Assembly: GCA_009694375.1 (NCBI GenBank)
Contig: SHVB01000015.1
Span: 1-64,000, forward strand
Length of the DNA stretch: 64,000 nucleotides
Direction of reading: 5' to 3'
From: Acidimicrobiia bacterium
GTDB lineage: Bacteria > Actinomycetota > Acidimicrobiia > Acidimicrobiales > VFJN01
A program made the position numbers and the translations under genes. Every line of letters starts with the position of its first letter. Position 1 is the first letter of the stretch. The notes under the pieces are model-generated. The model had not been told where the DNA came from and ran no database searches. It worked only from the letters and a program-made list of their open reading frames with translations. Below are positions 27,207 through 45,054 of this stretch, one piece after another.

Positions 27207-27224
27207 ATGTGAACAATTTCACGA
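27207..27224 (+). promoter_or_regulatory. candidate Rex operator upstream of the bc-complex operon
   Basis: ATGTGAACAATTTCACGA agrees with the Rex operator consensus (TTGTGAA, four free bases, TTCACAA) at 12 of 14 defined positions and is symmetric. It lies in the divergent 209-base gap between the monoheme cytochrome c gene and the bc operon, and its right edge touches the ribosome site GAGGGAG (27223-27229) of the first gene. A rex gene is in the window at 10798. Confidence 0.65.
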
Positions 27225-28104: not shown

Positions 28105-28893
28105 GTGTCAGACACCATGAACGACAAGCGCGGCGCCGAGCGGGCGATCGAGTCGCTGAAGAAACTCCCGGACAACGTCCAATCCAGCCAGGCGTGGAAC
28201 TCGATCTTCCGGCCCGGGTCCATCTTCCGCAACGGGTACACCGACTCCCCCCGGAACCGCTCCTATGTGATCATGAACTCGGTGCTGTACCACCTGCACC
28301 CGGTGAAGGTGAAGCGCCACGCCGTGAAGGTGAGCTACACGCTCTGCCTCGGTGGCCTCTCGTTCTTCCTTTTTATCCATCTCACGATCACCGGCATCTT
28401 CCTGATGTTCTTCTACCGGCCCACGGCGGTCTCGGCGTGGTCGGATATCTACACCCTGCAGACCTCAGTCACCTTTGGTTTGCTCGTGCGGAACATGCAC
28501 CGTTGGGGCGCGCACCTCATGGTGCTGGCGGTCTTTCTCCACATGGCTCGCGTCTTCTATCACGGGGCCTACAAGCCGCCGCGCGAGTTCAACTGGGTGA
28601 TAGGCGTCGTCCTGCTGTTGCTCACCCTGCTGCTGTCCTTCACCGGATACCTCCTGCCGTGGGATCAGCTGGCGCTGTGGGCGGTGACGGTGGGCACGAA
28701 CATGATGGGCTACACCCCCGTGTTCGGGAACCAAGTGCGCTTTGTGCTCCTCGGTGGGGCCGAGATCGGCACCGACACCCTGCTGCGCTGGTACGTGTTG
28801 CACGTTCTGTTGCTCCCCTTCGTGATCGTGATCTTTATGGCGATTCACTTCTGGCGGGTGCGCAAAGACGGCGGAATCTCAGGACCTTTGTGA
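28105..28893 (+). CDS. qcrB: cytochrome b, N-terminal half (cytochrome b6 type), with a conserved heme c_n cysteine
   Basis: 262 residues, four membrane helices. Heme ligands are H132 and H146 (14 apart, in [17 protein letters not shown]) and H233 and H248 (15 apart), the spacing of cytochrome b6. C81 lies in [10 protein letters not shown], at the position of the cysteine that covalently holds heme c_n (c_i) in cytochrome b6 and in firmicute QcrB. The protein ends ISGPL like b6, and the last helices are on a separate gene. Mycobacterial and streptomycete QcrB are single long chains, so this is an unusual type for an actinobacterium. It is the quinol-oxidising core of the complex. Confidence 0.93.
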
Positions 28894-28911
28894 TGAAGGG
28901 GGCTGACACCG

Positions 28912-29673
28912 ATGGCTGAGATACCCGAACACCTCCGCAAACGAGCCGAAGAAGCGCGGGCCAAGGCGGCCGCCGCCAGCGGAAGCGCCGAAGCCACCCC
29001 CGACGCGCCCGCCACGGAGGCGGAGAGCAAGATCCCCGCTCACCTCCTCCAGCGCTCCAAGGCTGCCAAGGCCAAGGCCGAGGGCGATACCCCGGCATCC
29101 ACGGAGGTGGCAACCTCTGGTGGTGGCGTGGCCACGGCGGTGGGGTCATCTCCGCTCCCGGTGGTCACCGGTCCCGGCGGGCATACCCAGCGCCTGCTCA
29201 CGGTGGTCAAGTCGGGATCGATCCAGGATGTGAAGGCCACCCCGCAGGACAAGGTCCACGTATGGCCCCACCTACTCGTGGTCGAGTTCGTAGCGGCCCT
29301 TTCCGTCACGGCCTTCCTGCTCATCTTCGCCGTCTTCGTCAACGCTCCGCTGTTGGAGTTGGCCAACGTCAACCAAACCCCGAACCCCTCCAAGGCTCCC
29401 TGGTACTTCCTCGGGTTGCAGGAGTTGCTCAAGTGGTTCCATCCGATGGTGGCGGGGGTGCTGCTTCCCGGGATGGCGCTGGTCGGCCTGATCTTGTCGC
29501 CTTACATCGACCGCAATCCGAGCAACAAGCCCGAGAACCGAAAGTTCGCGATCTCGTTGTTCACGATGTTCCTGATGTACTGGGCGGTGCTGGTCATGAT
29601 GGGCACGTTCTTCCGAGGCCCTGGCTTCAACTTCATTTTCCCGTGGAACGCCGGACTGTTCGTGGAGCTCTGA
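28912..29673 (+). CDS. qcrC: cytochrome b, C-terminal half (subunit IV type), with N-terminal tag repeats
   Basis: 253 residues. Residues about 105-253 are the three-helix subunit IV domain with NPSKAPWYFLGLQELL (161-166 replaces the PEWY motif by APWY, losing the glutamate) and GVLLPGMALVGL. The first 100 residues are a charged, alanine-rich extension with two copies of a short tag: EIPEHLRKRAEEARAKA (3-19) and KIPAHLLQRSKAAKAKAEG (40-58). The same tag starts the monoheme cytochrome c. The gene name here only marks its place in the operon; it is not the cytochrome c subunit. The Rieske gene follows after 7 bases. Confidence 0.88.
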   Translation: MAEIPEHLRKRAEEARAKAAAASGSAEATPDAPATEAESKIPAHLLQRSKAAKAKAEGDTPASTEVATSGGGVATAVGSSPLPVVTGPGGHTQRLLTVVKSGSIQDVKATPQDKVHVWPHLLVVEFVAALSVTAFLLIFAVFVNAPLLELANVNQTPNPSKAPWYFLGLQELLKWFHPMVAGVLLPGMALVGLILSPYIDRNPSNKPENRKFAISLFTMFLMYWAVLVMMGTFFRGPGFNFIFPWNAGLFVEL

Positions 29674-29680
29674 GACGACT

Positions 29681-30550
29681 ATGCAAACCACCACCGCACT
29701 ACTGATTGCCATTCCCGTGCTTGTGCTGTTAGCCGGGGTGTTGTTGTTCGCCAGTGCTCGTCGTCGCGATACCGGCGAAGCCATCGGAGCACTGGCTCGG
29801 GAAACTCGGCGTCGCGATCGTGGTGCCGTTGCGCTCACGAGCGACGACGACGCCCCGGTCACCGGCAAAGAGGTTGAGCGAGCCTCGGTCGTTGAGCGCG
29901 AGGAAGCATCGCGGGCGTTGGCCACCGTTGGCGCCAAGGCCCCGGTGGCCTGGGTGCCGCCGGATCCTGAGGCGCTCGATATCAGTCGGCGTCAGTTTTT
30001 CAACCGGGGCATCGTTACGTTCTTCGGCCTCGGGCTGGCGGGCTTTGGAGCCGGCGCCCTGGCGTTCCTGTGGCCGCAGCTGGGGGTGGGTTTCGGATCG
30101 GTGATCGGCATCGGGAGCACTGCCAGCGTGGATACCAAGATTGCCGAGGGCGCCGGCTTCGCCTATTTCCCCGAAGGCCGCATGTGGGTAACGAAGTACC
30201 CCGCCGCCGCGCTCCCGGCCGCTCGTTTGGTCTATAAGCAAGAACTACCGGGCATGGAGGCCGGCTACACGGCGCTCTACCAAAAGTGCGTGCATCTTGG
30301 CTGCCGTGTCCCGGAGTGCAAGACCTCCCAGTGGTTCGAGTGCCAGTGTCATGGCTCGCAGTACAACCGCGCCGGGGAGAAGAAGGGTGGCCCCGCCCCC
30401 CGTGGTCTCGACCGCTTCCCGCTGGCGGTCAGCAACGGAAACATCGAGGTGGACACGAGCATCGTGATCATCGGCCCGGCGATCGGGACCAACACGACCG
30501 GCCAAGAGGCCGAGGGTCCGCATTGCGTTGGTAGCGCGGAGAAGGAATGA
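29681..30550 (+). CDS. qcrA: Rieske iron-sulfur protein
   Basis: 289 residues. The [2Fe-2S] ligands are C203, H205, C221 and H224, with C208 and C223 placed to form the usual disulfide (KCVHLGC and ECQCHGSQYN). C212 is extra. A membrane helix at residues 5-24 is followed by a charged linker and a second helix (about 111-132) preceded by SRRQFF, a twin-arginine-like motif. Two helices before the head recall the multi-helix Rieske proteins of Actinobacteria rather than the single-helix form. It moves electrons from quinol to cytochrome c. Confidence 0.93.
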   Translation: MQTTTALLIAIPVLVLLAGVLLFASARRRDTGEAIGALARETRRRDRGAVALTSDDDAPVTGKEVERASVVEREEASRALATVGAKAPVAWVPPDPEALDISRRQFFNRGIVTFFGLGLAGFGAGALAFLWPQLGVGFGSVIGIGSTASVDTKIAEGAGFAYFPEGRMWVTKYPAAALPAARLVYKQELPGMEAGYTALYQKCVHLGCRVPECKTSQWFECQCHGSQYNRAGEKKGGPAPRGLDRFPLAVSNGNIEVDTSIVIIGPAIGTNTTGQEAEGPHCVGSAEKE

Positions 30551-30554
30551 CGCC

Positions 30555-31778
30555 ATGATCGCCGTCCTCCCCTCGCTGTTGGCCGCTAGCACCGTGAAGT
30601 CCGTCGGTGCTGTCGTGGCGGTTCTTACCCTCATCGGCTTTGTGGTGTACGTAGTCGTAAATATCCGCTCCGGTCGTGAGGAGATCGGTTCCGAGATCGA
30701 ACTCGCACCCAATCGCAAGCCCTATTACCCCGATGAGGTTCTCGAGGGCCCCCGCCTCACTCGGGCCCTGAGCACGGGGTTGGTCCTGCTGGCGATCTCA
30801 GCGCTCGGACTGCCGCTCTACTGGCTCAACGAGCCTTCTCGTCAAGAGGGCGCCATCGCTCAGTTCGATGCCACCTTCGTGGAGCGAGGCAGCATCCTGT
30901 TCGCCCCTACGGCCGACGGTGGGTACAACTGTGCGGGCTGCCACGGCCCGAAGGGCACCGGCGGGGTGGCACCGCCGTACACCCTCACCGGCGCGGAGGG
31001 GCAGTTCGTGGCCGCCGTTAGCTGGAAAGCCCCCGCCATCAACACGGTGTTGCTTCGCTTCAGCGAGGAAGAGGTGCGTGACGTCCTCGTGTACGGCCGT
31101 CCGGGTAGCCCGATGCCCGCCTGGGGGGCCCTCGGCGGCGGACCGCTCACCAGTCAGCAGATCGATGAGCTGATTGCCTATCTCGGGTCGATTCAACTCA
31201 CCTCTACCGAGGCCAAGGCGCAGTCGGAAGAGGCGCTGCGGGTTCGGCTGGGTCTTGAGCCCGGTGCGTTGATCGATTACACGGACCCGGCGGTGGGCAA
31301 GGCGATCTTCAACCTGGGGCTGGAGACCGGCACTGCTGGCGGTTCCTACTCCTGTGCCCGCTGCCATACCAAGGGGGCGTCGTACCGCGATGGTGACGTA
31401 TCGCCGGCCAACGCCGACCTCAGCAACTACATCGACTTCACGGACGGTTCCGGGGCCAACGGGTTCGCCCTCACCTCGGGCTTGGTGCCGCGCCAGTTCC
31501 TCACGCTCGATGCTCTGATCGAGTTCTTGCGCTCTGGCTCCAAGTACGGCGTGCTCTACGGGCAGCGCGGGGTCGGGAGCGGTCGTATGCCGGGTCTCGG
31601 CGACAACCCGAATACCCCCGAAGCCGACGATGGCATGTTCTCCGACGGGATGCTGCGGGCGGCAGCGTGTTACGAATCCAGCCTTGAAGGCGATGCGCCT
31701 CCGTTGGGTTGCAAGGGCAGCCTGCCCATCCCGCCCGCCCCTTCATCGGACACTCTGACCATGACCGGAGAGCGCTGA
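30555..31778 (+). CDS. membrane-bound diheme cytochrome c of the bc complex
   Basis: 407 residues. Two helices near the N-terminus (about 15-36 and 71-90) are followed by a large domain with two heme sites, CAGCH (126-130) and CARCH (267-271), each with a cytochrome c fold around it (GRPGSPMPAWG supplies a likely methionine for the first). Actinobacterial complexes use a diheme QcrC; this protein is likely its functional counterpart but differs in having two membrane helices and in lying after the Rieske gene. ATG 30555 is preceded by GAAGGAATGA, which contains the Rieske stop. Confidence 0.88.
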   Translation: MIAVLPSLLAASTVKSVGAVVAVLTLIGFVVYVVVNIRSGREEIGSEIELAPNRKPYYPDEVLEGPRLTRALSTGLVLLAISALGLPLYWLNEPSRQEGAIAQFDATFVERGSILFAPTADGGYNCAGCHGPKGTGGVAPPYTLTGAEGQFVAAVSWKAPAINTVLLRFSEEEVRDVLVYGRPGSPMPAWGALGGGPLTSQQIDELIAYLGSIQLTSTEAKAQSEEALRVRLGLEPGALIDYTDPAVGKAIFNLGLETGTAGGSYSCARCHTKGASYRDGDVSPANADLSNYIDFTDGSGANGFALTSGLVPRQFLTLDALIEFLRSGSKYGVLYGQRGVGSGRMPGLGDNPNTPEADDGMFSDGMLRAAACYESSLEGDAPPLGCKGSLPIPPAPSSDTLTMTGER

Positions 31779-31781
31779 GCA

Positions 31782-32690
31782 ATGCTGCTTCACACGATCG
31801 CCGGCATTGCCTGGGACCCTCAGCTTCGGGGATTCCTGGCGGTGGGCGTGGGGGTGGTCGTTCTGTTGGGATCGACCGTCCTGCTCCTCACGACCAATCT
31901 CGGATCGCGGCTGGGGTTCCTCCTGGCGGCGTCGGCCTTCTTCGGCTGGTGCACCATCATGGGTATGACCTGGTGGCTCTACGGCAACATCGGCATGATC
32001 GGGGAGGACCCGAGTTGGGTGGTCACCGAGGTGGTCTACAGCAGCGGGGCCACCGATGAGTCCGGCCTCCTCGACGCTGATCTTGAGTTGGCCCGAGTAC
32101 TCGATACCGCGCAGATGCCGGCCGTGGATGATTTGAGAGAACTGGATCCGGCGGCTCTGTCTGCGGTGAAGAGCGAGGTGGAACCCAGCCTGTCGGGATG
32201 GGAGATTCTTGAGGAGTCGAACACGAGTTTCGGCGAGGCCAAAGCCACCGTGGATGAGTATTTCGTGGAGAACAACAACGTAGAACTCGATCTCTCCTCG
32301 GCGGCGGACTACGTCACCGTCTACGCCTTCGAGCGCGGCGGCAAGATCGACCTGCCGGCGAATGCCAATCGCTTCGACCGGATCGGGCGGAAACTAAAAA
32401 CAACCTTCTGGCAGGTTCGACACCCCCCTCGCTACGCGTTGATCCAGGTGCGGCCGGTGGTGGAGCCGGAGCCGGTGCCCGGCGAAGCACCCCCGCTACC
32501 GGAGGCCGACCTCACCCAACCGGTGGTGTCGGTAATCCTGAAGCGGGATCTCGGCGATCGCCGCTTCCCCGGCGCCATGCTCACCTTGTTTTCGGGCATC
32601 ATGTTTGGTGTGACGGTGAGCATGCTCCATCGCCGCGACCTTCGATCGGCCGCTGCCCGGGGCGTATCCTTGGCCATTCCGGAGGGCTGA
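31782..32690 (+). CDS. unknown membrane protein linking the bc and nuo gene blocks
   Basis: 302 residues. Two N-terminal helices (about 15-36 and 43-66), a soluble domain of roughly 195 residues and a third helix near residue 270 (PGAMLTLFSGIMFGVTVSML). The soluble domain contains VEPSLSGWEILEESNTSFGEAKATVDEY, read here as two acidic helices, and has no cysteine pairs or heme motif. I recognise no family. It lies 3 bases after the diheme cytochrome and 7 before nuoA, so it is co-expressed with both complexes and may be a subunit, assembly factor or supercomplex link. Confidence 0.75.
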   Translation: MLLHTIAGIAWDPQLRGFLAVGVGVVVLLGSTVLLLTTNLGSRLGFLLAASAFFGWCTIMGMTWWLYGNIGMIGEDPSWVVTEVVYSSGATDESGLLDADLELARVLDTAQMPAVDDLRELDPAALSAVKSEVEPSLSGWEILEESNTSFGEAKATVDEYFVENNNVELDLSSAADYVTVYAFERGGKIDLPANANRFDRIGRKLKTTFWQVRHPPRYALIQVRPVVEPEPVPGEAPPLPEADLTQPVVSVILKRDLGDRRFPGAMLTLFSGIMFGVTVSMLHRRDLRSAAARGVSLAIPEG

Positions 32691-32697
32691 GGGGACC

Positions 32698-33177
32698 ATG
32701 GGCCAGTACCTGCCGGTGTTCCTGCTCGCCGTGTTGGCGATTCTCTTCGCCGCCATCAGTAGGGTCGCCTCCCAACTCCTCGCCCCCAGTGCCACCACGG
32801 TGGCCAAGCGTTCGCCGTATGAGTGCGGCATCGTGCCCGGTCGGGAAACCCTCGAACGGTTCCCGGTGCGGTTTTATCTCATCGCCATGATCTTCATCGT
32901 GTTCGATATCGAGATCATTTTCCTCTACCCCTGGGCCGTCATCTACCGAAATCTCGGGGCTGGTGGGCTCTTCGAGGTGCTGCTGTTCACGCTGTCGGTG
33001 CTGGTCTCGTTCGTCTACCTGCTCAGCAACGGCGCCCTGGATTGGGGCCCGGCCAAGCAGTCGCGGTTGCTGTCGCCGATGGTCTCGGCCGACCGCACCA
33101 CGCTCACCACCGTCCGTCGGGTGGGTCTTGACGGACGCCACGAGGGCGATGTCGACCATGACGAGGAAGCCGCCTGA
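32698..33177 (+). CDS. nuoA: NADH:quinone oxidoreductase subunit A
   Basis: 159 residues, three helices. SPYECGIVP and [23 protein letters not shown] are the family hallmarks; the first carries the loop cysteine seen near the quinone site. The C-terminal 40 residues after the third helix are a longer charged tail than usual. First gene of a complete A-N operon. Its stop shares a base with the nuoB start. Confidence 0.95.
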
Positions 33178-33752
33178 TGCAGTGGGACGTAAGTAAGGGC
33201 CTGGAAGGGCTAGATCACAACTTCATCACCGGCAAACTTGAGGACGTTGTCAAATGGGCCCGCCGCATGTCGGTGATGCCTGCCACCTTCGGCTTGGCCT
33301 GCTGCGCCCTGGAGATGATGGGAACCGGGGGAGCTCATTACGACATCTCCCGTTTCGGCATGGAGACCTTTCGGGCGTCGCCCCGTCAGGCCGATCTCAT
33401 GATCGTGGCCGGCCGCGTCAGCCAGAAGATGGCCCCGGTGCTCCGCCAGATCTACGACCAGATGATGGAGCCGAAATGGGTCATCAGCATGGGGGTCTGT
33501 GCCAGCAGCGGTGGCATGTTCAACAACTACGCCCTCGTGCAAGGCGTAGACCAGATCGTGCCGGTCGACGTCTATGCCCCCGGCTGCCCGCCCGGTCCGG
33601 AGACGTTGATCCATGCGATCAACACGCTGCACGAAAAGATCCGCGACGGTGAACTCACGCGGCGGCGCCCGGGAACCGGCTTGGGGATCAGCGTGGAGCA
33701 GCGCGATGGCCAACCCGAGCCACAGCCGGTTTCGCTGAGCGCGAGGAACTGA
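33177..33752 (+). CDS. nuoB: NADH:quinone oxidoreductase subunit B
   Basis: 191 residues. It holds cluster N2, the last iron-sulfur centre before quinone. Ligands are the paired cysteines in [11 protein letters not shown], the cysteine in [11 protein letters not shown] and that in [11 protein letters not shown]. Peripheral arm, cytoplasmic face. The tail (about 25 residues after [11 protein letters not shown]) is variable. Confidence 0.96.
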
Positions 33753-33754
33753 CC

Positions 33755-34297
33755 GTGAGCGACGACATCGTCGTCGAGCCCGGCCCCGAGGCTGAGGCTG
33801 CGCCGGAGCCACCCCGGCGGCATGGCGCGCTCGTAACCCATCACCACGGTGACACCGTGCTCCACGCCTCTCGAGCCGATCTGGCCGCCGTCGTGCGTCT
33901 TCTGCGCGACGAGGATGGTTTCAACATGTGTCTCGACGTCACTGCCGTGGACTACCTCACCTATGAACCGGATCGGGCTTTGCCCCCCGGGGTCACCCCG
34001 GAGCGCTTCGAGGTTGTCGTCACCTTGATGTCCCACTCGGAGCGTGGGCGCCTTCGTTTGCGGGTGCAGGTGCCCGGGGACGACCCCACCTGTCCTTCGC
34101 TGTTTGATGTGCACCCGGGCAGCGAGGCCAGCGAGCGCGAGGTGTTCGACCTCTTCGGCGTGATCTTTGAAGGCCACCCCGACCTCACCCGTATTTTGAT
34201 GCCGGAAGATTGGGATGGCCACCCGCTCCGCAAGGACCACGCTATGGGTCGCATCCCCGTGCAGTTCAAAGGCGCCGACCGCCAGGACGCCCGCTGA
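33755..34297 (+). CDS. nuoC: NADH:quinone oxidoreductase subunit C
   Basis: 180 residues, the 30 kDa subunit. The family signature ASEREVFDLFGVIFEGHPDL and RILMPEDWDGHPLRKD are intact. An acidic and proline-rich N-terminal 25 residues precede the domain. GTG start 2 bases after the nuoB stop. The stop overlaps nuoD by one base. Confidence 0.94.
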   Translation: MSDDIVVEPGPEAEAAPEPPRRHGALVTHHHGDTVLHASRADLAAVVRLLRDEDGFNMCLDVTAVDYLTYEPDRALPPGVTPERFEVVVTLMSHSERGRLRLRVQVPGDDPTCPSLFDVHPGSEASEREVFDLFGVIFEGHPDLTRILMPEDWDGHPLRKDHAMGRIPVQFKGADRQDAR

Positions 34298-35634
34298 TGA
34301 CCACCGTGGAGCCGCGTCGCTCGGGGATAGAAACCTCCGAGGGGGCCCAGGAGATGACCGCTCGATCCTCCGCCGGGGCGAAGGAATTGCTCCGCGAGTT
34401 GGGAGCGACGCTGCGACTTTCGGAGTCTGAGGCAGCCGAACTGGTGAGCGAGGGACCCTCTGAAGATCAGACAATGATCATCAACATGGGTCCGCAGCAC
34501 CCCTCTACGCACGGGGTGTTGCGCCTCATGTTGGAACTCGAGGGGGAAACGGTGCTGCGCACCAAGCCGATCGTGGGCTACCTGCACACCGGCATGGAGA
34601 AGACGGGCGAAGATCTCACCTATCTCCAGGGCGCCACCAACGTGACCCGCATGGATTACGCGGCTCCGTTGTTCAGTGAGTTGGCCTTTGCGCTCACCAC
34701 CGAGAAACTCCTGGGCATCGCCGAGGACATCCCGCCGCGAGCGCAGTGGATTCGGATGCTTCTCACCGAGTTGAACCGGATGACCTCGCACTTGCTTTTC
34801 CTGGCCACCAACGGCATGGATATGGGCGCGGTCTCGATGATGCTCTACGGCTGGCGTGATCGTGAGGAGGGACTCCGCACGCTCGAAATGATCACGGGCC
34901 TGCGCATGAACCACAACTACATACGCCCCGGCGGGGTGGCGGCGGATCTCCCCGACGGGTGGCGCGACCAGGTACTCAAGTTCCTCGATGGCGTGGCCCC
35001 GAGCCTCGCCGAGTACGACGTGTTGCTCACGGGCCAGCCGATCTATCGCGAGCGTCTGCAGGGGGTGGGCATCATCACGGCCGAGGAGGCCATCGCCTTG
35101 GGGGCCACTGGCCCCATCCTGCGCTCTACAGGGGTCCCGTGGGACCTCCGCCGCGATCTTCCGTACCTGCACTACGACGAGGTTGATTTCGATGTGGTGG
35201 TGGGGAGTTATGGCGACTGTTTCGATCGCTACGCCATCCGCATCAACGAGGTTCGGGAGTCGATCAAGATCATTCGGCAGATTCTCGACCAACTGCCTCG
35301 CGGCGACTATCGGATTCAGGACAAGAAAGTAACCCCGCCGCCGCGAGCCCGGATCGACGAGTCGATGGAAGCGCTCATCCACCACTTCAAGATCTTCACC
35401 GAGGGCTTCAAGGTGCCCGCGGGCGAGGCCTACGCGGCCGTTGAGTCGCCGCGCGGCGAATTGGGTTGCTACATCGTCTCCGACGGCACCTCGAAGCCCT
35501 ACCGGATGCACATCCGCGGTCCGAGTTTCGTCAACTTGCAGACCCTTCCGCACATGATGCGGGGGGGTCTGATCGCCGATGCGGTGGCCGTGATTTCCAG
35601 CGTGGACCCGATCATGGGTGAGGTCGACCGCTAA
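34297..35634 (+). CDS. nuoD: NADH:quinone oxidoreductase subunit D (NADH-linked copy)
   Basis: 445 residues, the 49 kDa subunit forming the quinone chamber with NuoB. MGPQHPSTHGVLRLM holds the quinone-site histidine; PPRAQWIRMLLTELNRMTSHL and NYIRPGGVAADLPDGW follow. The N-terminus is about 55 residues longer than in the second NuoD of the window. At the place of the arginine methylated in mitochondrial NDUFS2 it has threonine (T98, YLHTGMEK), as in Thermus. The stop is followed by the operon's largest internal gap. Confidence 0.95.
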   Translation: MTTVEPRRSGIETSEGAQEMTARSSAGAKELLRELGATLRLSESEAAELVSEGPSEDQTMIINMGPQHPSTHGVLRLMLELEGETVLRTKPIVGYLHTGMEKTGEDLTYLQGATNVTRMDYAAPLFSELAFALTTEKLLGIAEDIPPRAQWIRMLLTELNRMTSHLLFLATNGMDMGAVSMMLYGWRDREEGLRTLEMITGLRMNHNYIRPGGVAADLPDGWRDQVLKFLDGVAPSLAEYDVLLTGQPIYRERLQGVGIITAEEAIALGATGPILRSTGVPWDLRRDLPYLHYDEVDFDVVVGSYGDCFDRYAIRINEVRESIKIIRQILDQLPRGDYRIQDKKVTPPPRARIDESMEALIHHFKIFTEGFKVPAGEAYAAVESPRGELGCYIVSDGTSKPYRMHIRGPSFVNLQTLPHMMRGGLIADAVAVISSVDPIMGEVDR

Positions 35635-35718
35635 CGCCTTCCCCGCTTCTGTGCTTCGTGGGCTCCCTCAGTTCGGCCTCGGTGTTGGTGGGCCACTACG
35701 TTGCACAAAGCACCCCCC

Positions 35719-35731
35719 GACCCTTCGGGTC
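35719..35731 (+). terminator. short hairpin in the nuoD-nuoE gap
   Basis: GACCC (35719-35723) and GGGTC (35727-35731) with a TTC loop. It may slow or partly end transcription from the upstream promoter before the nuoE promoter region. Confidence 0.3.
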
Positions 35732-35745
35732 TTCCCTATACGGAC

Positions 35746-35763
35746 TTGTGCAAGGATTCACAA
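35746..35763 (+). promoter_or_regulatory. candidate Rex operator directly in front of nuoE
   Basis: TTGTGCAAGGATTCACAA matches the Rex consensus at 13 of 14 defined positions. It ends two bases before the nuoE ATG (35766), inside the 131-base gap after nuoD. The free central bases AGGA also form the only plausible ribosome site (AAGGA 35752-35756, 9 bases from the ATG). TATACG at 35737-35742 could be a weak -10 for an internal promoter. Confidence 0.7.
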
Positions 35764-35765
35764 AG

Positions 35766-36386
35766 ATGCCCCGGTTCACCGCCGACAACACGATCCTGGC
35801 GCATGAGATCATCACCCGATACCCGCGCCCGAAATCGGCCCTCATCCCGCTCCTGCACCTGGCCCAGGAGCAGGACGGCTACGTGGCCGAGGACGCCATG
35901 GAGCACATTGCCGAACTGATCGGAGTCACCGCCGCGGAGGTGTTGGGCACCTGTTCCTTCTATGAGATGTTCAAACTGGCGCCGGTGGGGGAGTACCTCG
36001 TCAACGTGTGCACGAACATCGCCTGCCTGCTGGTGGGCGGTGAGGAGTTGCTGCACCACATCGAAACTCGCCTCGGCATCAAGCCCGGTAATACGACCGA
36101 AGACGGCAAGTTCACCGTCGAGGACGTGGAGTGCATCGCCGCCTGCACGGAGGCCCCGTGCCTTCAGGTGAACTACCGCTATTTCTACCGGGTCACCCCC
36201 GATGCGGCCGATGCCCTCATCGACGATCTGCTCCACGATCGGCGCCTGGACGAGATTCCCAAACACGGCGTATTGGCCCGAACTCGCCAGCAGATTCCGG
36301 CCGCCACGCGGGCTGGCAATGCGGTGCCGGGCGAGGCGGAGGAACCCGTGTGGCTCCGTAGTGCCCGAGCGGAGGTGAGCCCGTGA
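35766..36386 (+). CDS. nuoE: NADH:quinone oxidoreductase subunit E
   Basis: 206 residues, 24 kDa [2Fe-2S] subunit of the NADH-input module. Cluster ligands are the C-x4-C pair in VCTNIACLLVGG and the C-x3-C pair in CIAACTEAPC. The region ILAHEIITRYPRPKSALIPLL is typical of the N-terminal helical part. I use ATG 35766 because upstream in-frame starts would read through the operator. A 40-residue extension after the thioredoxin-like fold is of unknown role. It overlaps nuoF by four bases. Confidence 0.95.
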   Translation: MPRFTADNTILAHEIITRYPRPKSALIPLLHLAQEQDGYVAEDAMEHIAELIGVTAAEVLGTCSFYEMFKLAPVGEYLVNVCTNIACLLVGGEELLHHIETRLGIKPGNTTEDGKFTVEDVECIAACTEAPCLQVNYRYFYRVTPDAADALIDDLLHDRRLDEIPKHGVLARTRQQIPAATRAGNAVPGEAEEPVWLRSARAEVSP

Positions 36387-37741
36387 CTGTCACCGACGCC
36401 CCCCCCATTGTGTCCACCCGATTCGCCCTCGACAATGGGCACACGCTCGATGGCTATCTCGCCACCGGCGGCTATCAAGGTCTGCGCGCCGCGCTGGCCA
36501 TCTCGCCCGCCGCCGTGGGCCAGGAAGTGAAGGCGGCGAGCCTCTTGGGCCGCGGCGGAGCCGGCTTTCCCGCCGGCACCAAATGGGGTTTCTGCCCGCC
36601 GGGAGTGTGGCCTCGTTATTTGGTGGTGAACGGCGACGAGTCCGAGCCGGGTACCTACAAGGACCGCCTCCTTATGGAGAAGGATCCGCACCAACTCATC
36701 GAGGGCGTGCTGATCGCCTCGTATGCCATTGGGGCCGCCCAGGCTTTTCTCTACGTGCGCGGTGAGATGGCGTTGGCCCAAGAGCGCATCGCTCAGGCCC
36801 TGAACGATGCCTACGCGGCGGGCTATATCGGGAAGAACATCCTCGGTACCGATTTTTCACTCGATGTGGTGCTTCACTGGGGGGCCGGCGCCTACATCGT
36901 GGGGGAGGAGACGGCCCTCATCGAGTCGCTCGAGGGCAACCGCGGGATGCCCCGCCTCAAACCGCCCTTTTTCCCAGCCGCCAAGGGCCTCTATCTGCAG
37001 CCCACCGTGGTGAACAACGTAGAGACTCTGGCCAATCTCCCCTGGATCATGACGAACGGGGGCGCACGGTTTGCCGAACTGGGCGCCGAGACCAGCCGCG
37101 GCATGCGCCTCTTCTCGGTGTCGGGTCACGTAGTGAAGCCAGGTGTGTACGAGGTGGAGCTTGGCGTCACGACGTTTCGTGATCTCATCTTCGACCCCGC
37201 CTACGGCGGTGGCCTCAGCGAAGGTCGATCCCTGAAGGCTTTCATACCTGGGGGCGCGTCGGCCCCCTGGTTCTACGAGGAGCACCTCGACATCCCGCTG
37301 GAAGCCGGTGCGGTGGGCGCGGCCGGTTCGATGCTCGGTTCGGGGGCCATCGTGGTCATGGACGACACCACCGATGCCGTGAAGGCGTGCTGGCGAGTGG
37401 TGCGGTTTTTTGCACGCGAGTCGTGCGGGAAGTGCACACCATGTCGAGAGGGCACGAGTTGGCTTGAGAAGGTGCTCCGCCGCATCCTCGACGGCGAAGG
37501 TCGACCCGACGACATCGCGCTGCTGCTCGACGTCTGCGACAACATCAGCCCCGGAATCGCCTGGCCCCCACAGCAGACCACCATCTGTCCCCTGGGTCCC
37601 TCGGCGGTGTCGCCGATCGCCTCGGCCATCGTGCGCTTCCGTGACGAGTTTGTGGCCCTCTGCGGAGGTACCGGCGAGTCGCCGGTTGCCATTACCGGCA
37701 AGGCCTACCTCCCGAAGCCGAACGAGGTCGCCGGTGTCTGA
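36383..37741 (+). CDS. nuoF: NADH:quinone oxidoreductase subunit F
   Basis: 452 residues. It binds NADH and FMN: LGRGGAGFPAGTKWGF, NGDESEPGTYKDR and GAYIVGEETALIESLEG. The N3 [4Fe-4S] cluster is in ESCGKCTPCREGTSWL with a fourth cysteine in QTTICPLGPSA. GTG start. Together with E and G this is the module missing from the second operon. Eight bases overlap nuoG. Confidence 0.96.
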   Translation: MTVTDAPPIVSTRFALDNGHTLDGYLATGGYQGLRAALAISPAAVGQEVKAASLLGRGGAGFPAGTKWGFCPPGVWPRYLVVNGDESEPGTYKDRLLMEKDPHQLIEGVLIASYAIGAAQAFLYVRGEMALAQERIAQALNDAYAAGYIGKNILGTDFSLDVVLHWGAGAYIVGEETALIESLEGNRGMPRLKPPFFPAAKGLYLQPTVVNNVETLANLPWIMTNGGARFAELGAETSRGMRLFSVSGHVVKPGVYEVELGVTTFRDLIFDPAYGGGLSEGRSLKAFIPGGASAPWFYEEHLDIPLEAGAVGAAGSMLGSGAIVVMDDTTDAVKACWRVVRFFARESCGKCTPCREGTSWLEKVLRRILDGEGRPDDIALLLDVCDNISPGIAWPPQQTTICPLGPSAVSPIASAIVRFRDEFVALCGGTGESPVAITGKAYLPKPNEVAGV

Positions 37742-40331
37742 CATCGCCAAGGCGCCGGCCGAGACGGTGATCCTGACCATCAACGGAAACGCCGTGGAAG
37801 CCAAGCCCGGTGAGCTGGTCATCGAGGCGGCCGAGCGCACCGGCACCTATATTCCGCGCTTCTGCTACCACTCGCGGCTCGAGCCGGTGGGCATGTGCCG
37901 CATGTGCATCGTGGAGATCGACACCGGCCGCGGCCCCGCTCTCCAGCCGGCTTGCATGATCTCCGTCGCGGCAGAGATGAAGGTAGATACCGAGAGTGCC
38001 ATCACCAAGAAGGCACAGGACGGGGTGCTCGAGTTCCTGCTCGTGAACCATCCACTGGACTGCCCGGTGTGCGACAAGGGCGGCGAGTGCCCCCTGCAAG
38101 ACCAGACCATGTCCTACGGCCCCGGCGAGAGCCGGTTCGTGGAAGAGAAGCGACATTTCGAGAAGCCGATCATGATCAGCGATCTGGTGGCGCTCGATCG
38201 GGAGCGCTGCATTCTCTGCGACCGTTGCACCCGGTTCGCCAAGGACGTGGCGGGCGACACGCTCATCCATTTCCAGGATCGCGGGAACCAGACGCAGGTC
38301 AATACCTTCCCCGATCATCCTTTCGCCAGCTATTTCAGCGGCAACACCGTGCAAATCTGTCCGGTGGGGGCGCTCACCGCCAAGCCCTATCGGTTCAAGG
38401 CTCGCCCGTGGGATCTCGATCAGGCCGAGAGCACCTGCACGTCGTGCTCGATGGGGTGTCGCACGCTCGTGCAGGCGAGCCGCAATGAGGTCCTTCGTTA
38501 TCAGGGTGTCGACATCGATCCGGTGAACTGGGGGTGGCTGTGCGATAAGGGGCGTTTCGGTTTCGAAGACATCGGTCATCCCGACCGTCTTGGTGCTCCG
38601 TTGATGAACGACGGCCATGCCCTGGCGACCACATCCTGGGGCGCCGCCCTTACCCGGGTGGCCGCGGCCATCAAGGAGGCCAAGCCTGGTCGTATCGCGG
38701 TGCTGGGGGGCGCCCGCCTCACTAACGAATCGGCTTACGCGTGGGCGAAGTTGGCCAAGGGTGTTATCGGCACCGACCATGTTGACGCCCAACTCGGTGA
38801 CGGCCTACCGGCCGAAGTGATCCTGGGTTTGCCGCGCGCCACCATCGATGAGGCGTGCGCGCCGGGCGGCACCGTGTTGCTGCTGGCCCCGGATCTCAAA
38901 GAGGAACTGCCGGTTCTTTTCCTGCGGCTGCGCCATGCCGTCACGAACGACAACGTGACCGTGGTGGAGATTGCCCCGCGCCGAAGTTCCGTGTCGGACC
39001 TGGCCGCCGCCACGTTGTTGCCCCTCGCCGGCACCGCCGGTGATGTGGTGGCCGCCCTGCTCGCCGGTCCGCCGGCGCAGGCGGTAGGGGGCGTGGAGCC
39101 CGATGCCCTGGCCGCCGCCGCCGCTCTCCTGGCCGCCGGGCCGGTTACGGTGATTCTTGGTCGCCCGAGTGTGGGTGAGTCGGCCGATGTTGTGGTGGCC
39201 GCCGCCGCTGCTATCCACGCGGCGCACCCCCACGTGCGGTTCTTATCGGCGCTGCGTCGGGGCAACGTGCACGGGGCGTTGGACATGGGCCTGAGCCCCG
39301 GTCTGCTCCCCGGCCGCACCACCTTGGCCGCCGGGTCGGACTGGTATCGCGAGGCGGGATGGGCCCACCTGCCCAGCGAAACCGGTCTGGACGCTCGGGG
39401 CATCCTCGCCGCCGCCGCCCACGGGAAGATTGATGTGCTCATCTTGCTCGGGGCTGATCCGCTGGCCGACTTCCCCGATGCCGATTTGGCCGGGCAGGCC
39501 ATCGCCGGCTCGGGCACAGTGATTGCCATCGATCGTTTCCTCACCGGGTCGGCCCAGCGGGCCGACATCGTGCTGGCCGCCGCCGGTCCGGCCGAAGTGA
39601 CGGGCACCACCACCAACCTTGAGGGCCGCGTGAGTGCGGTGATCCAGAAGATCACGCCGCCGGGCACGGCCCGGGCCGATTGGATGATGGCCGCCGAGAT
39701 CGCCCGCCTCTTGGGCCACGATCTGGGCCTCACCTCCTCCGAGCAGATCTGGGCCGAGGTCGAACGGCTTGCCCCCAGCCATGCCGGTATTAGCGGAGAA
39801 CTACTCCGCTCCCCGGCGGGGAGCGATGGAGTGGTGGTCGGCCGGCTGAGCGCGCGGGGATCCGGGGTGGCTGATGCCTTGGCGGTGGTGACCGCTGACG
39901 AAGCGGCGGTGGCCGAGGAATCCGCCTCCGAACCGGCCCTTCCCCCGGAACCGGTGCGACCGGCGGTGCTGTCCTTCAGCGCCCCGGCAGTGGTGGGGAT
40001 TCCGGCGGTGAACGCCTACCGTTTGCGGCTGGTGGCCACCCGAAAGTTGTATGACCTCGGTGTGGGCACCCAGCACTCCCCGAATCTGGCGGGCCTCACG
40101 TCGGGAACGGATCTGCGGTTGCATCCCCACGACTTCGACCACCTCGGCATCGAGCCGGGGGCCATCGTGACCGTCACGGCGGTCACGGGTTCGGTCACCC
40201 TCACGGCCTTCCCGGATGCCGGAGTGCCCAAGGGGGCCGCCGCCGTGATCATCAATCAGCCCGGCGCCGCCACCGGATCGCTGATCGACGCCGATGCGCT
40301 GGTGACCGACGTACAGGTGACCAGCGTCTGA
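37734..40331 (+). CDS. nuoG: NADH:quinone oxidoreductase subunit G
   Basis: 865 residues. The N-terminal 220 residues carry the [2Fe-2S] N1b site (CRMCIVE with upstream CYHS and downstream PAC), the HPLDCPVCDKGGECPLQDQ site and the RCILCDRCTRF site. Then CTSCSMGC with a later NWGWLCDKG gives the four cysteines of cluster N7, found in some bacteria only. The remainder is a molybdopterin-oxidoreductase-like domain without metal ligands, ending in a short beta-barrel domain. GTG 37734 is the best start because it gives the usual N-terminus just before TVILTINGNAVEAKPGE. Confidence 0.93.
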   Translation: MSDIAKAPAETVILTINGNAVEAKPGELVIEAAERTGTYIPRFCYHSRLEPVGMCRMCIVEIDTGRGPALQPACMISVAAEMKVDTESAITKKAQDGVLEFLLVNHPLDCPVCDKGGECPLQDQTMSYGPGESRFVEEKRHFEKPIMISDLVALDRERCILCDRCTRFAKDVAGDTLIHFQDRGNQTQVNTFPDHPFASYFSGNTVQICPVGALTAKPYRFKARPWDLDQAESTCTSCSMGCRTLVQASRNEVLRYQGVDIDPVNWGWLCDKGRFGFEDIGHPDRLGAPLMNDGHALATTSWGAALTRVAAAIKEAKPGRIAVLGGARLTNESAYAWAKLAKGVIGTDHVDAQLGDGLPAEVILGLPRATIDEACAPGGTVLLLAPDLKEELPVLFLRLRHAVTNDNVTVVEIAPRRSSVSDLAAATLLPLAGTAGDVVAALLAGPPAQAVGGVEPDALAAAAALLAAGPVTVILGRPSVGESADVVVAAAAAIHAAHPHVRFLSALRRGNVHGALDMGLSPGLLPGRTTLAAGSDWYREAGWAHLPSETGLDARGILAAAAHGKIDVLILLGADPLADFPDADLAGQAIAGSGTVIAIDRFLTGSAQRADIVLAAAGPAEVTGTTTNLEGRVSAVIQKITPPGTARADWMMAAEIARLLGHDLGLTSSEQIWAEVERLAPSHAGISGELLRSPAGSDGVVVGRLSARGSGVADALAVVTADEAAVAEESASEPALPPEPVRPAVLSFSAPAVVGIPAVNAYRLRLVATRKLYDLGVGTQHSPNLAGLTSGTDLRLHPHDFDHLGIEPGAIVTVTAVTGSVTLTAFPDAGVPKGAAAVIINQPGAATGSLIDADALVTDVQVTSV

Positions 40332-41551
40332 TGTTCGCGCTAGATCCGCTCTTCTCGGGCAACTTCGACATGGCGGTGTTTTTGATCGTGCTGGGGAAAG
40401 TGGTCATCGCTTTCGCCCTGCTGCTCGTGTCGGTGCTGTTCATGGTCTGGTTCGAGCGGAAATTGCACGCCGACATGTCGAACCGCCTCGGCCCCAACCG
40501 AGCGGGGCCTTTCGGCATCCTGCAAACGCTGGCGGACGGCATCAAGTTCTTCTTCAAGGAAGACCTCTTGCCGGACCGCGCCGACAAACGGATATTTATC
40601 CTGGCGCCGTTCCTGTCGCTCGTGCCGGCGTTTCTCGTCTTCTCGGTGATTCCCCTGGGGGGCGTGTTCACCGCCGAGAAACAGGGCATCGTGACCGTCT
40701 TCGGCCGGGAGACGTATGTCCAGCTGGCCGACCCCCCCATCGGTGTTCTGCTCATCCTGGCGTGTTCGTCCATCGCCGTCTACGGCGTGATGTTGGCGGG
40801 CTGGTCGTCGGGATCCAAATACCCGCTGTTGGGGTCCGTGCGGGCCTCGGCACAGATGGTTTCTTACGAAGCCGCGCTCGGTCTGTCGGTGATCGCGGTG
40901 GTCATGTTGACGGGCTCGCTCTCCACCCACGACATGGTGCTGGTGCAGGCGGGGGAGGGGTTCGGCGGCATCCTGCCGCGCTGGAACCTCATCGCCACCG
41001 GGGTCGTTCCCTTCGTGATTTTTGTGATCGCCGGGACGGCCGAACTCAACCGCCCGCCCTTCGACCTCGTGGAGGCTGAACAGGAACTGGTGGGCGGGTT
41101 CCACACCGAGTATTCGTCGATTCGGTTTGCCCTTTTCTTCCTGGCGGAGTTCATGAACACCGTCACCATGTCGGCCATCATCGTCACCCTCTTCCTAGGC
41201 GGTCCCGCCGGTCCCACCTTCTTCGGTCCGGCGTTGATGTGGGGTCCGATCTGGTTTGCCGGCAAACTTTTCCTGTTCCTCTTCATGTTTGTGTGGTTGC
41301 GAGCCACCCTCCCTCGGTTCCGCTACGACCAACTCATGGACCTGGGGTGGAAGGTGCTGATCCCGATCTCATTGGGTTGGATGCTGCTGTTGGCGAGCCT
41401 GAACGTGGCCGAGGATGCCGGATGGTCCACCTTCGTGGTGGCCGGGGCCGCCCTGCTGATCGGCCTGGCGGCCTACCTGATGCTGGCCGGGGCCATAGCC
41501 ACATCCGCCCGTCGGCGCGAGCAGGCCGAACTCGAAGGGAGCATCCGCTGA
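40331..41551 (+). CDS. nuoH: NADH:quinone oxidoreductase subunit H
   Basis: 406 residues, about eight helices. It lines the quinone entry channel. MVWFERKLHADMSNRLGPNRAGP, split over the first loop, and ELNRPPFDLVEAEQELVGGF are family signatures, with the conserved glutamates of the proton entry. A C-terminal 25-residue tail rich in R and E follows the last helix. It overlaps nuoG by one base. Confidence 0.95.
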   Translation: MFALDPLFSGNFDMAVFLIVLGKVVIAFALLLVSVLFMVWFERKLHADMSNRLGPNRAGPFGILQTLADGIKFFFKEDLLPDRADKRIFILAPFLSLVPAFLVFSVIPLGGVFTAEKQGIVTVFGRETYVQLADPPIGVLLILACSSIAVYGVMLAGWSSGSKYPLLGSVRASAQMVSYEAALGLSVIAVVMLTGSLSTHDMVLVQAGEGFGGILPRWNLIATGVVPFVIFVIAGTAELNRPPFDLVEAEQELVGGFHTEYSSIRFALFFLAEFMNTVTMSAIIVTLFLGGPAGPTFFGPALMWGPIWFAGKLFLFLFMFVWLRATLPRFRYDQLMDLGWKVLIPISLGWMLLLASLNVAEDAGWSTFVVAGAALLIGLAAYLMLAGAIATSARRREQAELEGSIR

Positions 41552-42240
41552 TGGGTAGTTATCTCAAGGGGTTCAAGATTACCTTCGGGAAGCTCTTCAA
41601 GGGCACGGAGTCCGGTCGGATGGTGACGGTCCCGTATGTGAAGGACAGCGGTCCGAAGCGCCACAAGCCCGAGCGTCTGCACGGTCGCCATGTCCTCAAC
41701 CGTTACGAGGACGGTATGGAGAAGTGCATTGGCTGCGAATTGTGCGCCGGGGTATGTCCGGCTCGCTGTATCTACGTACGGGGCGCCGACAATCCGCCCG
41801 ATGAACCGGTGTCGCCCGGCGAACGATTCGGTTTCATTTACGAAATCAACTACCTGCGCTGCATCCACTGCGACCTCTGTGTGGAGGCCTGCCCGACCGA
41901 GGCCATCACCGAGTCGAAACTTTTTGAGTTCTCGTTTACCAATCGCCAGGACGCCATCTACACGAAGGCCGAACTCGTAGTGGACGACGACGGCCTTCCG
42001 CAGCAACTGCCCTGGGAAGACTGGAGCGACCTCGACAAGGTGGCCGCCCAATCTTCCGCCTGGGTACGCGCCACTTCTCCTTCGGGCAATGCCCTCTACG
42101 AGGGCGTCGTGGCCTGGTCCGGTGAGTTGGGCTTTGGCGTGAAACCCCCCGAGGTTGGCCAGAGCGAGCCCGAGGCTGTGCCACCGGCGCCGCTGGAGGG
42201 CAACGCGGATGCCCCCGAGCCGACTGGCGGGCACCACTGA
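41551..42240 (+). CDS. nuoI: NADH:quinone oxidoreductase subunit I
   Basis: 229 residues. The two [4Fe-4S] clusters N6a/N6b are held by CIGCELCAGVCPARCI and CIHCDLCVEACPTEAI. An N-terminal amphipathic helix (YLKGFKITFGKLF) sits on the membrane. The C-terminal 60 residues are a glutamate/proline-rich extension. ATG directly follows the nuoH stop region. Confidence 0.95.
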   Translation: MGSYLKGFKITFGKLFKGTESGRMVTVPYVKDSGPKRHKPERLHGRHVLNRYEDGMEKCIGCELCAGVCPARCIYVRGADNPPDEPVSPGERFGFIYEINYLRCIHCDLCVEACPTEAITESKLFEFSFTNRQDAIYTKAELVVDDDGLPQQLPWEDWSDLDKVAAQSSAWVRATSPSGNALYEGVVAWSGELGFGVKPPEVGQSEPEAVPPAPLEGNADAPEPTGGHH

Positions 42241-42845
42241 TGCACGTCTTGGAAGGCCTCACTCCTGAACTGGTGGTGTTCGTCCTGGCTGGCTCGGTGT
42301 GCATCGTGGGAGCGCTGGGCGTCGTGCTCAATGCGAATCCGGTCCACTCCGCCCTGTCGCTGGTAGCCACGCTGTTCGGTGTGGCGGTGTTGTTCCTGGC
42401 CCAGGAAGCGAATTTTCTGGCGGCCGTGCAGATCATTGTGTACGCCGGCGCCATCGTGGTGCTGTTCCTCTTCGTGCTGATGCTGCTGGGGGTAGATCGG
42501 GCCGAGGACCTCTCCGTCGATGCCCTCGGCGGGGGCCAGCGGGTGGCCGCGTGCATCGTGGGTCTCGGAATACTGGCGCTGCCGTTGTTGGCCTTTGCCT
42601 CCACCGGGGGCGAGGCCACCGGAGCCCGTCCCCCCGCCACCGCCGCCAACGCCATCAACAAGACGATTCCCGACATCGCCCAACTCGGTGAGTCTCTGTT
42701 CACCACCTATATCTTTGCTTTCGAGGTGACCTCCGTCCTCCTGGTCATCGCCGTGGTTGGTGCGGTGGTGCTGGCCCGCAAGGTGAAGCGAGCCGACTAC
42801 GTAGAGGATCCGTTGGCGTCGACGGTGAGCGAGGTATCGACGTGA
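42240..42845 (+). CDS. nuoJ: NADH:quinone oxidoreductase subunit J
   Basis: 201 residues, five helices. The motif QIIVYAGAIVVLFLFVLMLLG in helix 3 is typical of NuoJ, whose helix contains the pi-bulge that gates the quinone-to-membrane link. A glycine/alanine/proline-rich loop of about 30 residues lies between helices 4 and 5. Overlaps nuoI by one base and nuoK by four. Confidence 0.94.
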   Translation: MHVLEGLTPELVVFVLAGSVCIVGALGVVLNANPVHSALSLVATLFGVAVLFLAQEANFLAAVQIIVYAGAIVVLFLFVLMLLGVDRAEDLSVDALGGGQRVAACIVGLGILALPLLAFASTGGEATGARPPATAANAINKTIPDIAQLGESLFTTYIFAFEVTSVLLVIAVVGAVVLARKVKRADYVEDPLASTVSEVST

Positions 42846-43159
42846 TCGCCATCGCTCAGGTCACCCCTGTGTGGTATCTCATCCTCGCCTCGGTGGTGTT
42901 CGCTATCGGCGCGGTAGGCCTGTTGGTGCGCCGAAATCCGCTGGTCATGTTCATGTGCGTCGAGTTGATGCTGAACGCCGTGACGCTCACCTTTGTCACG
43001 TTCTCTCGCATGCTCAACGACGTGAACGGGCAGACGGTGGTGGTGTTCGTCCTCGTGGTGGCTGCCGCCGAGGTCGTGGTGGGCCTGGGCATCATCGTGG
43101 CCCTTCTCCGCAAGCAGCCCTCGGCTACCGCCGATGACTTGACGGTTCTGAAGGGATAG
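42842..43159 (+). CDS. nuoK: NADH:quinone oxidoreductase subunit K
   Basis: 105 residues, three helices. VELMLNAVTLTFV contains the conserved glutamate of helix 2, and VAAAEVVVGLGIIVAL that of helix 3. It is the smallest antiporter-like subunit. GTG start. Confidence 0.94.
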   Translation: MIAIAQVTPVWYLILASVVFAIGAVGLLVRRNPLVMFMCVELMLNAVTLTFVTFSRMLNDVNGQTVVVFVLVVAAAEVVVGLGIIVALLRKQPSATADDLTVLKG

Positions 43160-43167
43160 CGGCGTAG

Positions 43168-45054
43168 ATGCTTGATCTCGTGTGGCTCGTCCCGGCGTTG
43201 CCGCTAGCCGGGTTCCTCATCCTGGTGGTTCTGGGTCGTCGGATGGGCGAGCCCGGCGCCGGCTGGCTGGCGACGGCGATGTGTGGCGGGGCTTTCGTGG
43301 CCACGGCCATCGTGTTGGCCGGGATGATCGGCGAGCAGGGAGAGGACCGTCGTCACCTGCTCACCTTGTTCGAGTGGATCAAGGTGGGGGGTTTCCGCGT
43401 TGAGGTGGGCTTCCTGGCTGATCCGCTCTCGATCACGATGGCCCTGTTCATTACGGGCATCGGAACGCTGATCCATCTGTACTCGATCTCCTACATGCAC
43501 GGGGATCCGAAGTTCTCGAAGTTCTTCATCTACATGAACCTCTTTGTGTTCTCGATGCTGATGCTCGTGTTGGGAAGCAACATGCTCGTGACCTTCTTGG
43601 GTTGGGAAGGGGTGGGGGCGTGCTCGTACCTGCTGATCGCGTTCTGGTTCAGCAAGGACGCCAATGCATCGGCGGGCAAGAAAGCCTTCGTGACGAACCG
43701 CATCGGCGACTGGGGCTTCATGTGCGCCATGTTCCTCACCTTCGCCGCGGTGGGTTCGCTGGACTACTCAGTGGTGCTGGAACAGGCGCCCCGCATCGCA
43801 CCCGCCACGGCCACGGCTATCGCGCTTTTGTTGTTCCTGGGCGCGTGCGGCAAGTCGGCCCAGTTGCCGCTCTTCGTGTGGCTGCCCGACGCCATGGCGG
43901 GCCCCACGCCGGTGTCGGCTCTGATCCACGCCGCCACCATGGTGACCGCCGGCGTGTACCTGATGACCCGCGTGAGCCCCATTCTCACGCAGAGCTACGA
44001 CTGGGCGCCGAGCATCATTGCCTGGGTGGGGGTCATCACGGCGCTCTTCGCCGCCACCATCGCGTTGGCCCAGACGGATATCAAAAAGGTGCTGGCCTAT
44101 TCCACCGTGAGCCAACTTGGTTTCATGTTCCTGGCGATTGGCTCCGGCGGCTACGTGGCCGCCATTTTTCACATGATCACCCATGCGTTCTTCAAGGCAT
44201 TGCTCTTCTTGGGGGCCGGCTCGGTCATTCACGGATTGCACGACGAGCAGGACATGCGACGCATGGGCAATCTCAAGAAGTACATGCCGATTACGGCGGC
44301 CACCTTCATCGTGGGGTGGCTGGCCATCGCCGGGGTGCCCCCCTTTGCCGGTTTTTGGTCGAAAGACGAGATTCTTCTGAACGCCTACGAGAAAAACCCG
44401 GCCCTGTGGTTCGTGGGTCTGGTGACGGCGCTTCTCACGGCCTTGTACATGAGCCGTCAGGTGTTCATGGTCTTCTTCGGCGAGGAGCGATGGAGGGACT
44501 CCGACCATGCCGCTGCCCCTGAGCCGCATGAGTCGCCGTGGAAGATGACGCTCCCCCTCGTCGTGCTGGCTGGTCTGGCCACGGTGGCCGGCGCTCTGGA
44601 CTCGCCCTTCGGTAGCCGCTCCGACTTCCTCGAGCGCTGGCTCGAGCCAGTGGTGGGGGAAAACGAGCAAGCGGTCACCGTCGCCACCTCCGCGCAGATC
44701 GGCCTGGGGGTGCTGGCGGTGTTGTGCTCACTAGTGGGTATCGCGGTGGCCTATCGGATCTATTACCAGCGCAAGATGGAGCCGATCGAGCCGGCGATCA
44801 TGGCGGAGGGGTGGAAGTACGACACGTCCATCGCGGCCTTCATGGGGGGACCGGGTCGCAAGGCGTTTGAGGCCACCGCCGCCTTCGATGGCACCGTCAT
44901 CGACGGGGCCGTGAACGGCGTGGCCACGCTGGTGCGCCGCAGTGGGGTGCATCTGCGAAAGGTCCAGAACGGGTTCGTGCGAACGTACGCTCTCGGCGTG
45001 GCGGTGGGTGTGGTGGCCTTGCTGGCCTACTTCCTGTCTCGGGTGACGTTCTGA
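43168..45054 (+). CDS. nuoL: NADH:quinone oxidoreductase subunit L
   Basis: 628 residues, about 16 helices. Antiporter-like proton channel with WEGVGACSYLLIAFW, LPDAMAGPTPVSALIHAATM, DIKKVLAYSTVSQLG and AGVPPFAGFWSKDEIL. The C-terminal part should form the long lateral helix along the membrane arm. Overlaps nuoM by one base. Confidence 0.95.
   Translation: MLDLVWLVPALPLAGFLILVVLGRRMGEPGAGWLATAMCGGAFVATAIVLAGMIGEQGEDRRHLLTLFEWIKVGGFRVEVGFLADPLSITMALFITGIGTLIHLYSISYMHGDPKFSKFFIYMNLFVFSMLMLVLGSNMLVTFLGWEGVGACSYLLIAFWFSKDANASAGKKAFVTNRIGDWGFMCAMFLTFAAVGSLDYSVVLEQAPRIAPATATAIALLLFLGACGKSAQLPLFVWLPDAMAGPTPVSALIHAATMVTAGVYLMTRVSPILTQSYDWAPSIIAWVGVITALFAATIALAQTDIKKVLAYSTVSQLGFMFLAIGSGGYVAAIFHMITHAFFKALLFLGAGSVIHGLHDEQDMRRMGNLKKYMPITAATFIVGWLAIAGVPPFAGFWSKDEILLNAYEKNPALWFVGLVTALLTALYMSRQVFMVFFGEERWRDSDHAAAPEPHESPWKMTLPLVVLAGLATVAGALDSPFGSRSDFLERWLEPVVGENEQAVTVATSAQIGLGVLAVLCSLVGIAVAYRIYYQRKMEPIEPAIMAEGWKYDTSIAAFMGGPGRKAFEATAAFDGTVIDGAVNGVATLVRRSGVHLRKVQNGFVRTYALGVAVGVVALLAYFLSRVTF

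Follow-up and report, generated by a model that had tools for sequence, protein, structure and literature searches.

A Rex-type operator sharing bases with the nuoE ribosome-binding site, a probable second control point within the bc-nuo operon of an Acidimicrobiia bacterium

In a 64,000-nucleotide stretch of a metagenome-assembled Acidimicrobiia genome (contig SHVB01000015.1; hereafter the window), the complex I genes nuoA to nuoN form part of a long operon in which a cytochrome bc-type cluster precedes nuoA, and a Rex-type palindrome lies inside this operon, directly before nuoE. The relevant features are as follows.

10798-11466, + strand: rex, the presumed sensor (NCBIfam 3e-100; PDB Rex 1e-50).
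27207-27224, + strand: Rex-type operator ATGTGAACAATTTCACGA at the bc-nuo operon start (12/14; same place in G001, G002, G006, G063 and G134).
27239-27670, + strand: first operon gene (MVAF.., without a Pfam match; homologous start behind Rex sites in relatives).
28105-32690, + strand: cytochrome b, b-type membrane subunit, Rieske protein, cytochrome c and one unknown gene, adjoining nuoA upstream.
32698-35634, + strand: nuoA-nuoD (profile matches).
35635-35765, + strand: nuoD-nuoE gap of 131 bp, the operon's only large gap (junction measurement).
35697-35702, + strand: possible -10 box, TACGTT, of a putative internal nuoE promoter (-69 from the ATG).
35746-35763, + strand: Rex-type operator TTGTGCAAGGATTCACAA, overlapping the nuoE ribosome-binding site (13/14 to consensus and conservation over -21 to -1).
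35753-35756, + strand: putative Shine-Dalgarno sequence AGGA, the operator's four unspecified central bases (9 nt 5' of the ATG).
35766-36386, + strand: nuoE, 206 aa (NCBIfam NuoE 5e-58; start agrees with the MARF/MARL starts of relatives).
36383-48409, + strand: nuoF-nuoN, downstream of the internal operator (nuoF and nuoG by NCBIfam; nuoH-N by gene order and tblastn with relatives).

The palindrome TTGTGCAAGGATTCACAA ends two bases 5' of the nuoE ATG at 35766 and matches the Rex consensus TTGTGAANNNNTTCACAA at 13 of 14 positions, exactly as an earlier sequence-only reading of the window had reported. Its sole mismatch is a C at position 6, and the match becomes complete (14/14) if the footprinted C6 and A/G variants are allowed. 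No other site of at least 13/14 occurs in the window, where 0.0016 would be expected per 64 kb under a first-order Markov model, and the 2.58-Mb genome holds only two one-mismatch sites, the other of which precedes the atp operon. The same reading had taken the free central bases for the nuoE Shine-Dalgarno sequence, which is plausible, AGGA lying at the usual spacing from the ATG. A nuoE start further upstream (GTG 35658) was ruled out, as relatives begin at the ATG.

All remaining junctions from the first gene (27239) through nuoN measure -88 to +21 bp, which bears out the earlier description of the nuoD-nuoE gap as the only large one. That reading had missed, however, that the operon starts not with nuoA but with the cytochrome bc-type cluster near 27.24 kb, likely at the GTG at 27239. 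The genome's next best Rex-type site (two mismatches), ATGTGAACAATTTCACGA, stands 14 bp before this GTG, and the relatives that share a Rex-type site at the operon start span two families. The conservation of this site indicates that Rex probably controls nuoA-D too, and because the operon start has a site of its own, the nuoE site is probably a second, internal checkpoint whose target would be a set of respiratory NADH genes (nuoE-N, complex I). Rex control at nuoE, as first proposed, thus keeps the Rex-type site, the overlap with the Shine-Dalgarno sequence, the large gap and strong selection in some relatives in its favor. Control of EFG and later genes apart from A-D is plausible, with the nuoE site probably adding a second control atop the one at the operon start.

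We compared the occurrence of the motif and of rex across the Acidimicrobiia order to which the genome belongs. The encoded Rex carries the segment VRKDLSYLGSYGTRGVGY, which differs from solved Rex structures at one position in the alignment. Of the order's 298 genomes, 90 contain exact copies of TTGTGMANNNNTTCACRA, compared with 3 for a reversed-pattern control, and rex was found in 217 of the 298 genomes and in 81 of the 90 that have the motif (Fisher p = 5e-6, an optimistic value since related genomes are not independent). The nine motif-positive genomes in which no rex was found may reflect gaps in metagenome-assembled genomes or another regulator. Exact sites lie 25-33 bp 5' of the aligned rex start in seven genomes (G020, G151, G154, G163, G211, G276 and G297), and 15 of the 30 nearest rex genes have a site of at least 12/14 in the 250 bp that precede them; ahead of rex in the studied genome there is only a degenerate site (9/14). 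In several families, the half-site found where the bc-nuo operon starts is usually TTGTGCA, with C6. On this evidence the nuoE element is very probably a genuine Rex operator with the variant half-sites TTGTGCA/TTCAC(A/G)A.

We surveyed the sequence upstream of nuoE in 108 genomes of the order (109 regions) for sites within 120 bp of the gene, and found sites of at least 13/14 in six genomes where 0.003 would be expected. Five of these place the site at -20: the studied genome (G000) and G002, which are of the same genus and share the 131-bp gap, and G063, G134 and G103, which belong to one genus of another family (f58). One carrier of the nuoE site has the record name Acidimicrobiia bacterium EGI L10123 and may be open to culture. 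The sixth, G211, belongs to a third family and carries TTGTGAAATGATTCCCGA at -59 in a nuoD-nuoE gap of 100 bp; about 8 bp beyond it lies a further half-site, TTCACGAA, possibly a third case in another family. Sites of this quality occur only where nuoD no longer abuts nuoE, and nothing above 10/14 was seen in the 76 regions where the two genes overlap or lie no more than 14 bp apart. In G063 and G134, 4.3 kb separate nuoD from nuoE; genes for an ABC exporter and a rhodanese, together with a second ABC-type gene, occupy this interval (L025:5760-9909), and all have the same orientation. The nuoD-nuoE gap of G264 (L058) contains a long near-perfect inverted repeat around CCTTGGGTGCGCAAGGG / CCCTTGCGCACCCAAGG and has no Rex-type site.

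The element is conserved well beyond its surroundings. Over -21 to -1, G000 and G002 are identical (21/21); G063 and G103 are likewise identical over these 21 positions but agree at only 19 of 38 over -60 to -22, and G000 and G063 agree at 19 of 21 but at only 9 of 38 in the same flank. Selection for a Shine-Dalgarno sequence alone would not preserve the distal half-site. Loss of the palindrome in close relatives that keep nuoE, which the earlier reading would have counted against its proposal, is seen in part: the site is kept in G002 and in three genomes of another family, while the congener G003 has nuoE behind a 307-bp gap without the palindrome, and the family members G001, G005 and G006 have no site at nuoE. 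The site is thus not essential to Rex control of nuo. Across the phylum, the pattern of operator plus start was matched in 34 of 346 genomes (control, 1), and since most of the matches examined are not clear gene starts, fusion with a ribosome-binding site is not general. Overall, we hold it very probable that the nuoE element is a real Rex-type operator, maintained by selection and unusually placed.

No strict sigma-70 promoter or terminator was found in the nuoD-nuoE gap, and an internal promoter is for this reason only a suggestion; TANNNT boxes stand at -69, -69, -71, -71 and -67 in the five carriers with the site at -20, and the f58 genus has CTGACC-N18-TAGNNT upstream of nuoE. Such a box would put the transcription start near -57 and the operator at about +38 to +55. 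The small hairpin noted earlier in the gap is present (GACCC-TTC-GGGTC, about 35719-35731), although the leader folds no better than shuffled sequence, and an Rfam scan of the window gave no match. A perfect 8-bp inverted repeat, TTGCACAA / TTGTGCAA (35701-35708 and 35746-35753), has arms 37 bp apart and shares its right arm with the operator; it was rejected as part of the element, being kept in G002 but missing in f58.

From the conserved sequence, the association of motif with rex and the presence of two operators, we infer a mechanism of binding and repression by Rex that we consider fairly likely overall: a second, internal Rex control point in the long bc-nuo operon, at which the operator's center doubles as the nuoE Shine-Dalgarno sequence and Rex stops the polymerase before nuoE until NADH releases it. 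At a low NADH/NAD+ ratio, Rex bound at -20 to -3 would halt RNA polymerase that reads through from nuoD, and possibly also polymerase coming from a weak internal promoter with its -10 box near -69. Polymerase reaching the site would have crossed a stretch of roughly 110 untranslated nucleotides and would lack a trailing ribosome. DNA-bound LacI placed 3' of a promoter lowers read-through, and trailing ribosomes aid the passage of polymerase (PMC4132739); roughly 110 untranslated bases would remove such help here. NADH would then free Rex, and transcription of nuoE-N would restart. The most likely mechanism is a roadblock within the operon that NADH would lift and that would affect read-through and possibly also transcription from a weak internal promoter; such a roadblock is demonstrated for LacI (PMC4132739) and inferred for Rex at nuoE.

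The operator might instead serve only an internal nuoE promoter, with Rex repressing that promoter and leaving read-through from nuoD unaffected. The TANNNT box recurs at -67 to -71 in each of the five genomes whose site lies at -20, joined in f58 by the CTGACC-N18-TAGNNT arrangement; the nuoD-nuoE junction is broken in all carriers; and f58 would require a promoter, since 4.3 kb of unrelated genes precede nuoE there. Against this, the -35 and the -10 box are weak, the gap yielded no strict sigma-70 promoter, and an operator at about +38 to +55 would be far for occluding initiation. The intervening f58 genes, moreover, all lie on the same strand, and read-through is still possible there. We regard control of a promoter alone as unlikely, if a serious contender.

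An altogether different regulator is a good deal less probable. The palindrome matches the core of a CRP/FNR-family site (TGTGA-N6-TCACA) at 9 of 10 positions, with C in place of the A of TGTGA, and the genome encodes one clear HTH_Crp_2 protein. Yet the C6 that breaks TGTGA is the common base where the bc-nuo operon begins in several families, and the same half-site has been footprinted with Rex (PMC5355995). The motif also tracks rex, and sites directly precede both the rex gene and known Rex targets. Rex is favored over a CRP-family protein by C6, by the link between motif and rex, and by the target set.

A role in RNA, in which a small UUGUG/CACAA hairpin with the Shine-Dalgarno sequence in its loop controls translation, would be consistent with the persistence of the inverted repeat as a wobble pair in the other family, and one of four leaders (G002) does fold into this hairpin. 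We consider it very improbable: the leaders fold no better than shuffles, the window's own minimum free energy structure lacks the hairpin, and the same motif occurs away from ribosome-binding sites at rex, atp and f34 bc-nuo starts. Chance resemblance or a functionless relic would account for the absence of the site from most relatives, including G003, but is just as improbable given the minute expectations per window and across the surveyed upstream regions and the near-complete identity across two families whose flanks have diverged.

In a NuoE+NuoF tree, G000, G002 and G003 group together and the f58 genus falls beside the other f1 genera within one supported clade. The carriers of the nuoE site are not monophyletic. 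These groupings do not support acquisition of the nuoE-N block from the other family by horizontal transfer. The distribution reflects either one early gain lost twice, or two gains under the shared constraints of Rex half-sites and a Shine-Dalgarno sequence. More broadly, and tentatively, since we hold it to be somewhat doubtful, breaks between nuoD and nuoE in the Acidimicrobiia may repeatedly have been followed by gain of a Rex operator at nuoE, with merger with the ribosome-binding site as the extreme form; the NADH-input module and the rest of complex I would thereby obtain an NADH/NAD+ checkpoint of their own besides that at the operon start.

The studied genome's other strong Rex-type sites precede atp, bc-nuo and a COX1 gene. 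The atp operon site, TTGTGAAGAGATTCGCAA (L002:1501-1518, contig C1:316627), lies 23 bp before an ATPase_gene1-like gene that is followed by ATP synthase subunit a, and ATGTGACTAGATTCCCAA (L015:1501-1518, contig C18:18588) lies about 30 bp before a COX1-family gene. Elsewhere in the order, perfect or near-perfect Rex-type palindromes stand before WhiB-like genes in family f29 (L082-L086 and L088; compare wblE in Streptomyces avermitilis), and perfect ones before fumarase-like genes in L089 and L103, both gene names being assigned by eye from translated N-termini.

The retention of a Rex site at the nuoE ribosome-binding site in a second family suggests that the NADH level is probably checked again in mid-operon. 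If this is correct, the NADH/NAD+ ratio can set the assembly modules of complex I apart, through a conserved second operator that shares bases with an internal ribosome-binding site. The site could serve to test repressor roadblocks where a gap is untranslated, and it illustrates how a broken operon may regain its regulation.

In Streptomyces, Rex is already known to control nuo at the promoter of the operon (PMC5355995). The Rex targets of S. avermitilis comprise nuoA1-N1, atp, cydA1B1CD, rex-hem and the WhiB-family gene wblE, and its DNase-footprinted rex operator, TTGTGCACGCGTTCACAA, has the same C in a TTGTGCA half-site (PMC5355995). Its cydA operator lies downstream of the transcription start, where, in the authors' proposal, Rex may impede advancing polymerase (PMC5355995). 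The system described here resembles this one in the 18-bp palindrome, including the TTGTGCA half-site, and in the target classes nuo, atp and rex. In Staphylococcus aureus the Rex operator is given as TTGTGAAW4TTCACAA (PMC2883068), which shares the 7-4-7 geometry; its spacer is A/T, unlike that of the nuoE site, and placement of this kind is not described in the abstract of that paper. Unlike S. avermitilis, in which operators lie at operon promoters before the first gene, the bc-nuo operon has a second operator within it, fused with an internal ribosome-binding site.
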